Shown here: positions 1,778-60,985 of the stretch, piece by piece
Position numbering within the stretch: the stretch's first letter is position 1
Layout of the letters: every line of letters begins with the position of its first letter
Notes under the pieces: model-generated
The model's input: the letters and a program-made list of their open reading frames with translations, nothing else
Told to the model about the DNA's origin: nothing
Database searches by the model: none
Position numbers and translations under genes: made by a program
Assembly: GCF_018156225.1 (NCBI RefSeq)
Contig: NZ_JAGTAR010000010.1
Coordinates: forward strand, 62,001 to 126,000
From: Carboxylicivirga sediminis
GTDB taxonomy: Bacteria > Bacteroidota > Bacteroidia > Bacteroidales > Marinilabiliaceae
DNA: 64,000 nt
Reading direction: 5' to 3'

Positions 1778-2851
1778 TTAATTTTTAATTCGTTTGTCGA
1801 TGTATTTAGAATTAATAATGCGCAGAACACCCATGTAGTCCATTTTAAACTCGATTAGGTCACCAACTTTGTAATTCTGCTTGTTTTCTTTCAGGTCGAT
1901 AACTAGCATATCGGAACTGGCGCCAACAAAGCTGATTTGTTCATCAACAGGGGTGATGTGTTGCTCATCTACGTCCAGCAGGCCAAGGTCTAATATGGCC
2001 CGAAATGATGTCTGCCCTATTTGATTATCATCAAATTCCACCTCGTGTCCTTCCACATTTACGCCCATTTCACCCATTGGTACGGCTGGTTTCTCGCTTA
2101 ATTCTATAATCTCAGAATAGAGCTTAAATACATCTGAATGCATTTTTTTGTAGGGTGTATTGTTGTATACATCGGTGCCCAAAAACAAAGTTTCTCCCAC
2201 GCGAAAGTGATTAATTCCTTTAGGAAGCAGGTTTTGAAAGATGAGGGGAATGGTTACTGATGAGCCACCCGAAACAAACTGTATTTGCTTATTGAAGCGG
2301 GCCTCAATTAATTGTTCGTACAGGCAAAGTTGTATGAGTTTATCATGATTAGGTAATACACCATACAGGCATGAGAGATTGGTGCCAATGCCTACCACCT
2401 CAATATTTTTAAGGTTAAAAACCTGCTTGTAAAAACTCATAAAATGATCGCCCATCACACCTTCTCGCAACTCGCCCAGTTCAATCATGATGATGATTTT
2501 ATGGGTTATATTTTGCTTAATCGCTTCTTCAGATAACAGGCGGATGGTGTTTATCTCTGTATTAAGGCTGATGTTGGCATATTTAATAACATTGGCAATG
2601 GAGCGCTTGGCTGGTGGTTTAATGTAAATAGTTTCAACTTCAGGATTCAGCTGTTTAATCATTTTTAAATTTGAGATGCGTGAGTCGCAAAAGCTGGTAA
2701 TGCCCATGTCGAGCAGTACCTTCAAATAATCGCGATTGCCACAAAGTAATTTCGACACAACCGACCATTGGATGTTGTTGCCTCTGAATATTTTATTGAG
2801 ATAGTTAAAGTTCCTTTTTAGTTTGTCTGTTTCTAAAGTAATAAATGCCAT
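1778..2851 (-). CDS. Alanine/ornithine racemase-like PLP-dependent enzyme
   Basis: A 357-residue fold-III PLP enzyme of the alanine racemase N-terminal type. The N-terminal TIM barrel carries the expected Schiff-base lysine near residue 34 in VVSKLLCGN. IIMIELGELREGV and QFVSGGSSVTIPL (phosphate-binding glycine/serine loop) follow the order seen in the alanine/ornithine racemase group. A C-terminal beta domain (from about residue 250) completes it. Known relatives racemise ornithine, alanine or lysine, and the substrate here cannot be read from sequence. The neighbourhood of ablA/ablB and an amino-acid-type symporter suggests a basic amino acid. It sits 8 bp after the GNAT gene and 5 bp before the marC-like gene, so they form one transcription unit. 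Confidence 0.75.
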   Translation of the reverse strand: MAFITLETDKLKRNFNYLNKIFRGNNIQWSVVSKLLCGNRDYLKVLLDMGITSFCDSRISNLKMIKQLNPEVETIYIKPPAKRSIANVIKYANISLNTEINTIRLLSEEAIKQNITHKIIIMIELGELREGVMGDHFMSFYKQVFNLKNIEVVGIGTNLSCLYGVLPNHDKLIQLCLYEQLIEARFNKQIQFVSGGSSVTIPLIFQNLLPKGINHFRVGETLFLGTDVYNNTPYKKMHSDVFKLYSEIIELSEKPAVPMGEMGVNVEGHEVEFDDNQIGQTSFRAILDLGLLDVDEQHITPVDEQISFVGASSDMLVIDLKENKQNYKVGDLIEFKMDYMGVLRIINSKYIDKRIKN

Positions 2852-2859
2852 ATCTGATC

Positions 2860-3318
2860 TTAATTGTTGGACTTATGTGTATATCTCATTTCTGCATATT
2901 TTGACTGAAAGCCTATTCGCTCATATAGTCGTTTGGCTGGGTTGTCATATTCCACATGTAGTTTGATATCGCCTTTGCAAAGAGAGAATGCTTTTTCAAT
3001 TATTTGCTGTCCGAAACCTTTGCCGCGGTAGCTGGCATCCACAGTTACGTACACCAATATATTGTCTGGTATATAGCCGCTCATGCCGGTATGGTTCATA
3101 ACCAGCGCACCCACTAATTGTCCCTGGTAGAAAGCTGCCAGGCCAAAGCCGCCCTCGCCCTTTTCTGTTGAAAAGGCGTAGTCAAGGCATTTGTTTATGT
3201 CGGCTTTAGGATCGCCATATTGGCCTAGGTGCGTGTGCAGGAAATCGACATATTCTTCCCGGCTAATGGCATTAAAATCAGTGTTGGAAGTGTATTTTTC
3301 AAACTCTAACATAATCAT
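2860..3318 (-). CDS. GNAT family N-acetyltransferase
   Basis: A 152-residue single-domain acetyltransferase. The acetyl-CoA pyrophosphate loop is RGKGFG at residues 98-103, preceded by the VYVTVDASY strand. The C-terminal DNPAKRLYERIGF is the classic motif B region. Translation could begin at M1 or M3. The gene lies 8 bp upstream of the racemase-like gene on the same strand, so co-transcription is likely. The acceptor substrate is unknown; an amino acid or diamine would fit the cluster, but that is inference. It is a different protein from the AblB-type acetyltransferase at 5592-6449. Confidence 0.8.
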   Translation of the reverse strand: MIMLEFEKYTSNTDFNAISREEYVDFLHTHLGQYGDPKADINKCLDYAFSTEKGEGGFGLAAFYQGQLVGALVMNHTGMSGYIPDNILVYVTVDASYRGKGFGQQIIEKAFSLCKGDIKLHVEYDNPAKRLYERIGFQSKYAEMRYTHKSNN

Positions 3319-3552
3319 GAGGTTTATATTGTTGTTATTGGGTAATATGTACCTTAAATTGTTTATAGCTCCTTTGAAAGGAATAGTTGTAACTGGTCAA
3401 TCAAGTGTCTGAGCCGACTCGTTTGCTTTCGATTATCAATTGAATCGGGCGGATTTTTCTGCTTTTTAAAATTTCTGTTTTTTTGTCGTGTATAATACCT
3501 CACCAGATTAAATCTATCATTCATTTTCTTTATGGTATTTGACGTTGTCTAC

Positions 3553-4986
3553 TTAATTGTTCGGTATGATTGAATCGTTCTTCTGCAGTCTGGAAATGAA
3601 GTTTTCTATTAGATAGGTAATGCCTGAAGCTGCAATGCCTGCAATGTTAGCATCCAATCCAAATGCCAGCTTAATGTCGAATATTATTAAGATTAAGGTG
3701 GTGCCACCGCCAATAAGCATGGCAGCCAGAGCTGCTTCGGGATTGGGTTTTCTGGCAGATAACGCGGCTACTACCGGAATAAACATGCCTGATACCATAA
3801 AGGAATACGAGTGCAACATTAGATCGAGTACACTGGTGACTTTTAGTGCGATGAACAGAGCCAGAATACCTATAAGCAGTGTGATGAGCTGCGAGTAACG
3901 TAGGTTATGACGTTTGTTGTGTAGCTTGAACACATCTGTAAGGATATTACCCGATGCTGCCATTAAACAACTATCTGCGGTAGACATTATGGCTGAAAAG
4001 TATGCCGATAATACTATGCCCATAAGACCTGCAGGCAGTATGGTGCGCAATAAAATCGGCAACCCCATTTCGGCATCTATGTCTGCAATCGCATAGTTGG
4101 TAATAATGCCACTTTCGAAAGCTACTCGGGCAAACATCCCCAGTGTAACGCCTAGAAAAGCCATTAGCGGGTATTCAAATAAGCCGGCAATCAGCCAGCC
4201 TCGCTGCGCTGTTTTTGTGTCTTTTGCTGCATAGATGCGTTGGTATAGTGTCATGCCAATGAACCAGATGGGAACAATTGTAAATAGCCAGTTGACAATT
4301 TGTGACCATGATATGGCTGTCAGGCTTAAAAAATCGGGCTTTAAGGTGGAGGTAATGATTTCTATACCACCTATTTTAAAGTAGGCAAAAGGCAAGGCCA
4401 CAAACAGTAAGCCACCCATTAATACAATCCACTGCACGGTATCGGTGTAAATAACGGCTTTGAGACCGCCTATTGCGGTGTAAACGATGGCTATAGTGCC
4501 CATCACTAGCAAAGCGGTATCCATTGATAAAGCCGGGAAAGTGGATGATGCCAGTTTGGCTCCGGCTAATATCTGAGACGAGGTAAAGCCAATATAACCA
4601 ATGGCCGTAATGATGCCGGCAAACAATGCCACCTTCTTATTAAAAGCATGTTCCAGAAATTGGGGGAAAGTTAAGAAGTTGCGTTCACGAGCCAGGCGTG
4701 ATACTTTGGGGATTAAGATAACGGCGCTCAGCCAGGCACCTACTAGTCCCGAAAATAGTAGCCAACTACCCGACAAACCCATCAAAAAGCCAAGGCCGCC
4801 AAGTCCAATGGAAAAGCCGCCACCCACATCTGTTGCAACCACTGAAAGGCCTATGTGTCCGGCCTTTAGTTTTCTTCCGCCTACATAGTAATCATCTGGT
4901 GTTTTGTTGCGTCGCATAAAGAAAAAACCGACGCCTAACATGGCAATGAGGTAAACAAAGAAAATTATCAAATCAATTGTATGCAT
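3553..4986 (-). CDS. Sodium:solute symporter (SSS family)
   Basis: A 477-residue polytopic membrane protein with about 13 hydrophobic segments, starting directly in a helix (HTIDLIIFFVYLIAMLGVG). Family hallmarks are NKTPDDYYVGGRKL after the first helix, the glycine-rich DVGGGFSIGLGGLGF segment, IWFIGMTLYQRIYAAKDTKTAQRGW, and AIMSTADSCLMAASGN, which lies in the sodium-site region of SSS proteins. It would couple solute uptake to sodium entry, as PutP and SGLT do. The substrate cannot be told from sequence. Its position between ablA/ablB and a racemase suggests an amino acid such as lysine or an osmolyte precursor. Gaps of about 200-230 bp on both sides leave room for separate promoters. Confidence 0.88.
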   Translation of the reverse strand: MHTIDLIIFFVYLIAMLGVGFFFMRRNKTPDDYYVGGRKLKAGHIGLSVVATDVGGGFSIGLGGLGFLMGLSGSWLLFSGLVGAWLSAVILIPKVSRLARERNFLTFPQFLEHAFNKKVALFAGIITAIGYIGFTSSQILAGAKLASSTFPALSMDTALLVMGTIAIVYTAIGGLKAVIYTDTVQWIVLMGGLLFVALPFAYFKIGGIEIITSTLKPDFLSLTAISWSQIVNWLFTIVPIWFIGMTLYQRIYAAKDTKTAQRGWLIAGLFEYPLMAFLGVTLGMFARVAFESGIITNYAIADIDAEMGLPILLRTILPAGLMGIVLSAYFSAIMSTADSCLMAASGNILTDVFKLHNKRHNLRYSQLITLLIGILALFIALKVTSVLDLMLHSYSFMVSGMFIPVVAALSARKPNPEAALAAMLIGGGTTLILIIFDIKLAFGLDANIAGIAASGITYLIENFISRLQKNDSIIPNN

Positions 4987-5189
4987 ACAATAAGAGGTTT
5001 AATACAAGCATAGGTTTTATAACGGCACAGATTGCACCGGACATTTTTATTCGCATCTGATTTTCAGATATGCATAATAGAAACTAACATGCAATGCCTG
5101 TTGTAGTAGCTAGACTGGGTTATTCAGTCTTGCTATAATAAGAACAGTGTGCTAAAAATGTTAAGAGTATGGTCAGATCACTTCAATGG

Positions 5190-26274: not shown

Positions 26275-26639
26275 ATACAAAATGTATCGTTGGCGGGAGA
26301 TTAAAATAGTCGATACACCGTGTATTTTACCATTTTACTATCTGGTGGACCCGATACACCGTGTATTTGCGTGTTTTAGTATCAAAATGGCCGGATACAA
26401 CTTGTATCGGGCCCGCTGAGTGTCAAAAAGTCAAAATACACCGTGTATTTGCTTCGCCAAGTCCAAAAATGCAAAGTACACCGTGTATTTGGCTCAACAA
26501 GCTCCAAGTAGCAAAAATACACCGTGTATCGACGTTTTTTTAATTTTGGCTCGATACATCGTGTATCGGAAAAAAAATAAAAAGTTGGTGGATATACGGT
26601 GTATCGATATGGATGGTATTTTATAATGAATACATGTAT
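26275..26639. repeat. Regular array of about ten 13-bp palindromes (consensus ATACACCGTGTAT)
   Basis: Copies start at 26275, 26313, 26354, 26395, 26436, 26476, 26517, 26554, 26592 and 26630. Five are exact ATACACCGTGTAT (26313, 26354, 26436, 26517, and 26476 apart from its first base). The others differ mostly in the centre (26275 AAAA, 26395 AACTT, 26554 ATC). Start-to-start distances are 38, 41, 41, 41, 40, 41, 37, 38 and 38 bp. Several copies extend to CG on one or both sides, so the full palindrome may be 17 bp. The 24-28-bp spacers of the middle units resemble each other weakly, so this is a decayed tandem repeat rather than a CRISPR array. It sits upstream of the NTF2-like gene and beside the MITE-like element. 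Confidence 0.85.
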
Positions 26640-26673
26640 TGATGACTAAAGGCTAATGGGAGCTGCACTATTA

Positions 26674-26935
26674 ACCTGAGTTCGACATAAAATTACTGGC
26701 TCAAATCGCTTATAAATGTTTAGTTTCAAGGAATATTTGTGAAAGAATAGCGAGCTATGGTGAACAGATATGACGATGAAAATGAATATTTATAAGTGAA
26801 ACTCTAAGCTTTTCCTTGAATAATTGATTTACTGCTTTAAATTTCATCACCGTAGCTCGCTACGCTTCTGAAACTCGCATTGTAAATCAGTTATTTAAGA
26901 AATTTTGAGCTCTGTAATTTTAATCGAACTCAGGT
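26674..26935. mobile_element. MITE-like element with terminal inverted repeats and 5-bp target duplication
   Basis: A 262-bp non-coding element. Its ends are inverted repeats starting ACCTGAGTTCGA, with pairing that continues with one or two mismatches for about 23 bp (ATAAAATTAC on the left, TTAAAATTAC on the right). It is flanked by identical TATTA at 26669-26673 and 26936-26940, as expected of a target-site duplication. The interior is also partly self-complementary: AGCGAGCTATGGTGA on the left pairs with the complement of TCACCGTAGCTCGCT on the right, so a transcript could fold as one long hairpin. It holds no transposase. It inserted one base beyond the end of the XRE gene. Confidence 0.78.
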
Positions 26936-26941
26936 TATTAC

Positions 26942-60670: not shown

Positions 60671-60714
60671 GGCATAAAGCAGATAGCTTATTATTGAATG
60701 ATTAATGCGAATCT

Positions 60715-60985
60715 ATAGTTGAACCCACTCCGGGGTTCTGTTAGTAATGTGATAATATACAATGGTTTGCGCCTTATAGATATTAAAATTAGATCCCTTC
60801 GGGATAAAAAAATGTCAGTACGACATTAACAATAATAGCCGCGTTCGAAGCGCGGGGTTATGAATATGGTGAGAAAACAACCCTGATATGGGTTGAAGGT
60901 TTATATGAAGCAAGTTTTAACCCGGATTATGTATTAGAACTTCGTCATGAGCGTTAAAAATGCAATAAAACAAGGCTTTACTGAA
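60715..60985. repeat. Hairpin-rich gene-free stretch
   Basis: Between the PUL terminator and the oxidoreductase lie about 460 bp without a gene. Short inverted pairs are dense: AACCC..GGGTT near 60724, ATCCC-TTC-GGGAT near 60799, AATGTC..GACATT near 60812, a CCGCG/CGCGG pair around TTCGAA near 60840, AACCC-TGATAT-GGGTT near 60880, and ACGATGCA-T-TGCATCGT near 60989. This looks like a decayed intergenic repeat element rather than a gene, since no frame of more than a few dozen codons is convincing. Its family cannot be named from one copy. Confidence 0.4.

Follow-up and report, generated by a model that had tools for sequence, protein, structure and literature searches.

A conserved orphan array of phased palindromes in Carboxylicivirga sediminis very probably belongs to a family linked to DUF6261 genes

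The BIME/REP elements of E. coli are intergenic arrays of alternating palindromes, of which the REPs are present in high copy, and iteron and partition-site arrays are made up of helically phased repeats beside the gene of the protein that binds them. Type III toxin–antitoxin systems, such as ToxIN and CptIN, have a layout of tandem repeats upstream of one gene. In the passages of PMC4596501 that describe them, MITE464/PgRS and BrickBuilt of P. gingivalis, likewise in the Bacteroidales, are tandem direct repeats with dispersed copies (PgRS, 41 nt; BrickBuilt, 23 nt and always intergenic), defined by inverted-repeat ends and presented there with no gene partner. The excerpted text of PMC12045711 describes TIGR-Tas as an array beside a single protein gene, with two alternating motifs per unit, palindromic variants and a motif that varies by locus, composed of 8–12-nt repeats and 9-nt spacers, with 36-nt guides and a Nop-domain protein.

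The window analysed here is a 64,000-nt stretch of contig C11 of the 5.8-Mb C. sediminis genome (G000), whose closest genome in the genus is that of a sister species, G011. It contains an array that very probably belongs to a family of phased palindromic arrays linked to genes of the Pfam family DUF6261 (PF19775), being made of intergenic palindromes at a pitch of 40–42 bp and being homologous to an array that adjoins a DUF6261 gene. The DUF6261-linked arrays, palindromic, of 41–42 bp pitch and for the most part a short way upstream of the gene, are apparently an undescribed family; no description of the pairing of array and DUF6261 was found in the openly licensed literature.

These arrays share with TIGR-Tas the place beside one protein gene, the two alternating motifs per unit, the palindromic variants and a motif that varies by locus, but have a pitch of 40–42 bp, no Nop match and no G–U wobble signature. 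Dyad symmetry is mentioned for BrickBuilt in the same passages of PMC4596501, as is seen here, whereas BrickBuilt repeats are given there without spacers, and both P. gingivalis elements are set apart by that description through their defining ends and lack of a reported partner. With type III toxin–antitoxin systems the arrays have in common tandem repeats upstream of one gene, and differ in their palindromic repeats, their orphan arrays and the absence of a toxin family by Pfam, NCBIfam and PADLOC. In contrast to REP/BIME elements they have a linked gene, and the TACA-type palindrome forms 1–4 arrays per genome; in contrast to iteron and partition sites they accompany many chromosomal paralogues with different palindromes, and no Rep or ParA match was found among ten neighbours and partners scanned.

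Structure of the window array

The array spans positions 26275–26639 and is composed of nine 13-bp palindromes and a shortened tenth (Table 1). Start-to-start distances between copies 1–9 are 38, 41, 41, 41, 40, 41, 37 and 38 bp; the regular run that the original prediction had given as four consecutive intervals of 40–41 bp is real and comprises five. Four copies have the perfect sequence ATACACCGTGTAT. The earlier wording, ten near-perfect palindromes, is slightly generous, as the tenth is a 10-mer without its centre and three copies (1, 9 and 10) are weaker. The region is gene-free, as had been proposed, in that no ORF of at least 80 aa overlaps the array (two ORFs of 60–68 aa do), and its spacers are related, with 60–78% identity to each other. 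In the G011 spacer orthologous to the one holding the half-pitch dyad of Table 1, the best dyad is at mid-pitch. The short end unit, as judged by eye, resembles the gene-proximal unit in DUF6261-linked arrays of G011 (C55), G006 and G009.

Table 1. Features of the palindromic array, in window positions. Copies 1–9 are of the ATACA-N3-TGTAT type and begin at the first position given.
Positions	Feature	Basis or remark
26275–26287	Copy 1, ATACAAAATGTAT	Outlying; absent as a conserved copy in G011
26311–26567	Conserved core: copies 2–8 and spacers	Divergence from G011; homology to the C69 array
26313–26325	Copy 2, ATACACCGTGTAT	
26354–26366	Copy 3, ATACACCGTGTAT	
26374–26387	Example of a half-pitch (B) dyad within a spacer, TTTTAGTATCAAAA	Imperfect
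26395–26407	Copy 4, ATACAACTTGTAT	A..T in place of the inner C..G pair on both sides
26436–26448	Copy 5, ATACACCGTGTAT	
26476–26488	Copy 6, GTACACCGTGTAT	
26517–26529	Copy 7, ATACACCGTGTAT	
26530–26553	Spacer of the short end unit, rich in A/T tracts, 37-bp pitch	Read by eye
26554–26566	Copy 8, ATACATCGTGTAT	
26592–26604	Copy 9, ATATACGGTGTAT	Outlying; unconserved in G011
26630–26639	Copy 10, ATACATGTAT	10-mer without the central triplet

The genome-wide distribution of the palindrome bears out the claim that the spacing is too regular for chance. All nine exact copies of ATACACCGTGTAT in G000 lie within the window array or a second array on contig C69, so the 13-mer is not a frequent, unspaced sequence of this genome, and 14 of the 24 sites of the looser ATACA-N3-TGTAT are inside the same two arrays. 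A two-copy palindrome pattern gave 14 matches in G000 and none for its reversed control. The window array is confirmed as real, conserved and not a product of chance.

A second array and conservation in the sister species

The second array (L009, 8887–9181) is inverted and 78% identical to window copies 2–8, the homology covering window positions 26311–26572 and stopping at the outer palindromes. It lies between a GH95 gene and a gene that we take to be aroC-like. Directly to its left is an intergenic element (L009, 8649–8862) with 87.5% identity to window positions 60705–60917, a segment in which many short inverted repeats are visible by eye.

Both arrays are found at the same places in G011, so the window array is not absent from all close relatives. 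The window core differs at 6 of 257 positions (2.3%), without gaps, as against 23 of 104 (22%) with two gap columns in the adjoining intergenic 104 bp and 27 of 444 (6%) in the NTF2-like coding sequence; the core is thus better conserved than the neighbouring coding sequence. Copies 1, 9 and 10 are not kept in G011. The C69 array differs at 12 of 295 positions (4.1%) and its flanks at 23 of 339 (6.8%) and 6 of 204 (2.9%), so that between these two genomes it is no better conserved than its surroundings.

Link to DUF6261 genes

The array of G011 that is homologous to the window array (C55; 79% identity) ends 57 bp before a DUF6261 gene, and an array of G276 (C1) lies 85 bp before another. DUF6261 is present in 12 of the 14 genomes of the genus, with 78 matches in all, and an array with a pitch of 40–42 bp, called at an 80-bp autocorrelation of at least 0.55, stands on one side of 55 of the 78 genes, mostly upstream. 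Counted by side, arrays are present upstream of 46 of 73 testable genes (45 at 40–42 bp and one best at 35), downstream of 8 of 75, and in one of the 78 gene bodies. A five-unit array of ATTACC-N2/3-GGTAAT-like palindromes, seen by eye within 420 bp upstream of a DUF6261 gene (L258, on C132 of G003), fell under the periodicity threshold, and the array counts are therefore lower bounds.

In the rest of the order, where the best-scoring DUF6261 gene of each further genome was taken and periods of 30–50 were searched, 21 of 28 genes have an upstream array, all of 41–42 bp, and none of the 27 testable genes has one downstream. In the rest of the phylum arrays are found at 12 of 16 DUF6261 genes, from 8 genomes, the loci of G163, G117 and G000 in this draw not having been re-measured. 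Two loci with no match to the DUF6261 profile, L350 in the order and L361 in the phylum, were left out of these counts. Among control genes 3 of 93 have an array: the window array itself, a 41-bp array (L015/G095) in a genome that also has DUF6261, and an array with a 50-bp period. This control set replaces one of 217 genes (23 passing) that included loci selected on the strength of their arrays.

Starting from 52 arrays selected by motif (pitch 40–44 bp), DUF6261 was found within 700 bp of 10, and any other family at no more than two; for the other 42, which include arrays from other phyla, no DUF6261 ORF lies that close. The match to DUF6261 was above the Pfam cut-off in all ten proteins tested. 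A DUF6261 gene whose upstream array is intact is that of Marinifilum breve JC075 (NZ_QFLI01000009.1, locus L139), with the gene at 2563–3324 on the minus strand and the array at 3598–3738. Carriers make up 32 of 295 genomes of the order and, of the 395 drawn from the phylum, 12, of which 11 exceed the cut-off, as against none of 14 control genomes; many carriers contain multiple DUF6261 genes, from several up to a dozen or more. Across 106 DUF6261 loci no other gene family recurs beside the gene more than four times, and the largest cluster of partner genes comes from four loci whose DUF6261 genes and palindromes are themselves related. None of the seven DUF6261 matches of G000 is on the window contig, and the window array is an orphan, a dispersed array without an adjacent DUF6261 gene.

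Architecture of the units and diversity of the palindromes

The typical unit is 41–42 bp long and contains a main dyad, A, with arms at about ±2 to ±9 around an unconserved 2–3-bp centre. Some arrays have a second dyad, B, half a pitch from A, which places the centres of successive A dyads about four helical turns apart and those of A and B about two. In 46 non-redundant motif-selected arrays (pitch 40–44 bp), complementarity at ±6 to ±9 is 4–5.5 s.d. above shuffles, the dyad reaching ±9, and the best B centre is exactly at mid-pitch in 18. B dyads are weak in the genus (mean 1.86, compared with 1.72 shuffled; 7 of 9 arrays above), and exceed shuffled values in 49 of 59 arrays of a wider set; among 74 gene-linked arrays, only 14 have B at mid-pitch. 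In the 69 of these 74 that have at least three units, identity between units peaks at the A arms (0.60–0.71) and the B arms (0.50–0.57), with a minimum of 0.41–0.44 at d = 10–12.

The palindromes vary from gene to gene, ranging from TTTCCAAACGTTTGGAAA to CCATGCACGTACGTGCATGG, and in 61 non-redundant arrays each half-site has the same outer G-C-(Y)-T and inner A framing a core that varies. Palindromes of genes whose products are at least 70% identical agree at 11.75 of 16 positions, those at 50–70% identity at 8.3, and those below at 6.3–7.0, near background; this correlation could be due to inheritance alone, because gene and array are linked. Two paralogues of G752 (L362 and L367) have one palindrome in common. 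Within the 69 arrays of at least three units, double changes that keep pairing are in excess (122, compared with 52 ± 6 shuffled), as are other double changes (72, compared with 50 ± 6); mutational repair of imperfect palindromes could also yield such compensation.

Related arrays and orphan copies

Seven of the 14 genus genomes match a TACA-N3-TGTA pair and six have TACA-N3-TGTA arrays at a pitch of 40–41 bp, the single pair of G007, 43 bp apart, not being counted as an array. In the order, three copies at a pitch of 36–45 bp were found in 5 of 393 genomes, compared with 1 of 393 for the reversed control. In another family of the order (G276 and G356) the array palindrome is TCTACA-WWW-TGTAGA; all 22 units retain the C and G that flank the searched motif, and the spacer consensus, too, is a palindrome. 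In the seven arrays of this family (f3), some of which are homologous, 34 of 35 intervals are 41 bp and the remaining one is 82, and despite the constant pitch the spacers diverge by about half between units of different arrays. Because A served as the search motif, contrasts between A and spacer in the f3 arrays carry a bias.

A scan of named genomes gave at least 109 repeat stretches; among the 109 listed the median pitch is 41–43 bp in 50, 22–23 in 11 and 51 in 14, and a group at 46 bp is also present. The 51-bp arrays include a separate gammaproteobacterial family, mostly of TACAGGATGTA/TACATCCTGTA palindromes (L122, L132, L153, L161, L172, L174, L194, L203 and L209). TACA-N3-TGTA arrays at 22–23 bp, about half the usual pitch, are found in gut Bacteroidales and a spirochaete (L134, L146, L173, L179, L183, L201 and L208). 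Aerococcaceae DSM 111022 has three arrays of 41–43 bp (L126, L151 and L178) and a Treponema MAG four (L105, L116, L136 and L143), all with no DUF6261 ORF within 700 bp. At L230 an array (4773–5032) separates two adjacent paralogous 383-aa genes, presumably galactokinase-like, and the orphan array of G003 (L231, on C11) is preceded, at a distance of 88 bp, by an AbiH-type abortive-infection gene.

In G011, G006, G276 and G337, the palindrome found in orphan arrays is also that of a DUF6261-linked array elsewhere in the genome. No TACA-N3-TGTA was found within 700 bp of the 11 DUF6261 genes of G003, G009 and G010 (two of which have almost no upstream sequence); the array at L265 of G009 has the half-sites of the orphan but a 2-bp centre. 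An array copy in G276 and G356 retains only the first codons of a DUF6261 gene, suggesting that an array can persist after the loss of its gene. In G000 the orthologue of the DUF6261 gene that follows the matching G011 array (L311; C67:14871–15299) has a frame of 196 aa, with its 5′ part lost or replaced, and no array. The original prediction made no mention of the C69 array, the relation to arrays of other species, the DUF6261 partner or the half-pitch dyad.

Whole arrays have been duplicated to unrelated loci, as would be expected of a non-functional mobile minisatellite, MITE-like in the manner of MITE464/PgRS, which would spread with or beside DUF6261 and acquire its palindromes by slippage and palindrome correction. 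The window array resembles PgRS in consisting of 41-nt tandem repeats between genes, and the 41-nt and 23-nt repeats described in that part of PMC4596501 offer a precedent. We nevertheless consider such an origin improbable: the window orphan has diverged by 2.3% next to DNA that has diverged by 22%, pitch stays constant while spacers diverge, and the gene link is strong across many families. The homology between the C11 and C69 arrays ends at the outer palindromes.

The DUF6261 protein and the possible role of the arrays

The DUF6261 protein is predicted to be an all-helical bundle (pLDDT 82, pTM 0.57), with no recognised DNA-binding fold and no named relative. Foldseek (PDB and BFVD) and VIA gave helical-bundle matches only, which speak neither for nor against a Nop or TorS-like fold, and a sequence profile search of the PDB returned helical designs and the like, with no Tas or Nop chain. 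Among ten proteins scanned with Pfam, DUF6261 was the only match in nine and was joined by a sub-threshold SKA1 match in one. PHROGs, NCBIfam and PADLOC, with five proteins each, gave weak matches only, and tblastn of plasmids and phages with one query each gave none. Four DUF6261 proteins (L164, L192, L119 and L158) have an extra C-terminal domain (..NNVNAGNAKCTISGKGAYKGSKTVTFII in L158), which we take to be of a surface-protein repeat type.

The units are symmetric, helically spaced and indifferent to strand, and have no G–U signature, which favours duplex DNA bound by a symmetric protein on one face of the helix; the regular gene link makes DUF6261 the first candidate for that protein. We put at about even the chance that the arrays are docking or autoregulation sites, at the level of DNA, of a symmetric protein that is most likely the DUF6261 product. 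Such arrays would work as double-stranded DNA, with adjacent units occupied cooperatively by the protein along one face of the helix. Arrays in cis would be docking or autoregulation sites adjoining the DUF6261 gene, and orphan arrays would provide further sites in trans. That DUF6261 is the binder is something we infer, given a predicted helical bundle with no named relative. The original proposal of a dimeric protein able to bind all copies on one DNA face is in keeping with the phased dyads.

A broader reading, which we advance tentatively, treats DUF6261 together with its array as a self-contained addressing system. In this family of many paralogues per genome, members would read their own diversified palindromic address, as DNA or as array RNA, at arrays in cis and at orphan arrays in trans, the window array among them, which they would gather, silence or guard. 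The arrays offer a way into a functionally uncharacterised protein family, most tested copies of which come with ready candidate binding sites that differ between paralogues. If DUF6261 reads its array, the pairs would amount to a natural collection of protein–palindrome specificities; if the array acts as RNA, they would be a new protein–RNA array system.

An RNA role is the main rival to binding of duplex DNA, ahead of the minisatellite and, last, of structure-specific DNA hairpins. Tandem-hairpin RNA units would bind DUF6261, as in type III toxin–antitoxin systems or TIGR-Tas, with orphans as extra RNA genes. Tandem units of 40–42 nt directly upstream of one gene of about 240 aa have a similar layout, and the excess of pairing-preserving double changes would fit RNA stems. 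The last dyad is a median 124 bp from the DUF6261 start codon, and a CTTTGACA motif, possibly a promoter reading in, precedes the array in 5 of 68 loci (L249, L251, L252, L253 and L259; 148–388 bp away), promoter-like motifs around the arrays otherwise having no clear layout. RNA stems usually show an excess of G–T over A–C, and no such excess is seen among the mismatched pairs on the gene strand of 68 upstream arrays, which comprise 86 G–T and 106 A–C. Rfam gave three matches in the window region, all far below gathering scores, and Pfam found neither a Nop domain nor another toxin family in the ten DUF6261 proteins. TIGR stem-loop arrays also have units that are 'variable but consistently palindromic' in the excerpted text of PMC12045711. 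We regard the RNA reading as unlikely.

Less probable again is recognition of DNA hairpins or cruciforms by structure, as at recombination or transposition ends, with base sequence playing no part. The palindrome sequence is free while symmetry and a 2–3-nt unpaired centre are kept, and mismatches have no strand bias, as such recognition would allow. Yet the outer G-C-(Y)-T and inner A recur across the family, as for a protein reading the double helix, and hairpins need no fixed pitch of 41–42 bp; we regard this reading as quite improbable.

The earlier statement that the array fits no named element was upheld for those tried, CRISPR, REP/BIME and TIGR-Tas. CRISPR was rejected on the related spacers and their conservation in G011, and REP/BIME on the confinement of all exact palindrome copies to two arrays. 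TIGR-Tas membership was rejected with no Nop-domain (Tas) match by Pfam or PDB profile, and its repeat and spacer layout on a pitch of 40–42 bp and a short variable link seen only at d = 10–12 and at the centres. For a known toxin family, as in type III toxin–antitoxin systems, the matches were all sub-threshold.

Genes and elements beside the window array

The array had also been tied to its neighbours, an NTF2-like gene downstream and a gene for a membrane-tethered XRE protein with an HTH_3 domain, for either of which it could be a multi-operator. This part of the original prediction found no support, while its phased dyads stood. A clear NTF2-like homologue is present in 11 genomes of the genus; G000 and G011 alone have an array at that locus, and no chain of at least five palindromes was found there in the nine others. 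At the orthologous array of G011, the place of the XRE gene is taken by a 125-aa ORF with no Pfam match. Related arrays of other species have unrelated genes on either side, and the arrangement of these may be convergent, tandem or divergent. An operator of the NTF2-like or XRE gene was accordingly rejected as highly improbable, the neighbours being incidental to the array.

Between the array and the XRE gene is a young MITE of about 272 bp (26669–26940) with the ends CTGAGTTCGACATAAAAT and ATTTTAATCGAACTCAG, which is missing from the orthologous locus of G011. It has 50 matches in the genome, 21 of them, itself included, at 95% identity or more and many at contig ends. Its ends resemble those of P. 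gingivalis MITE239/ISPg3 as printed in the relevant part of PMC4596501.
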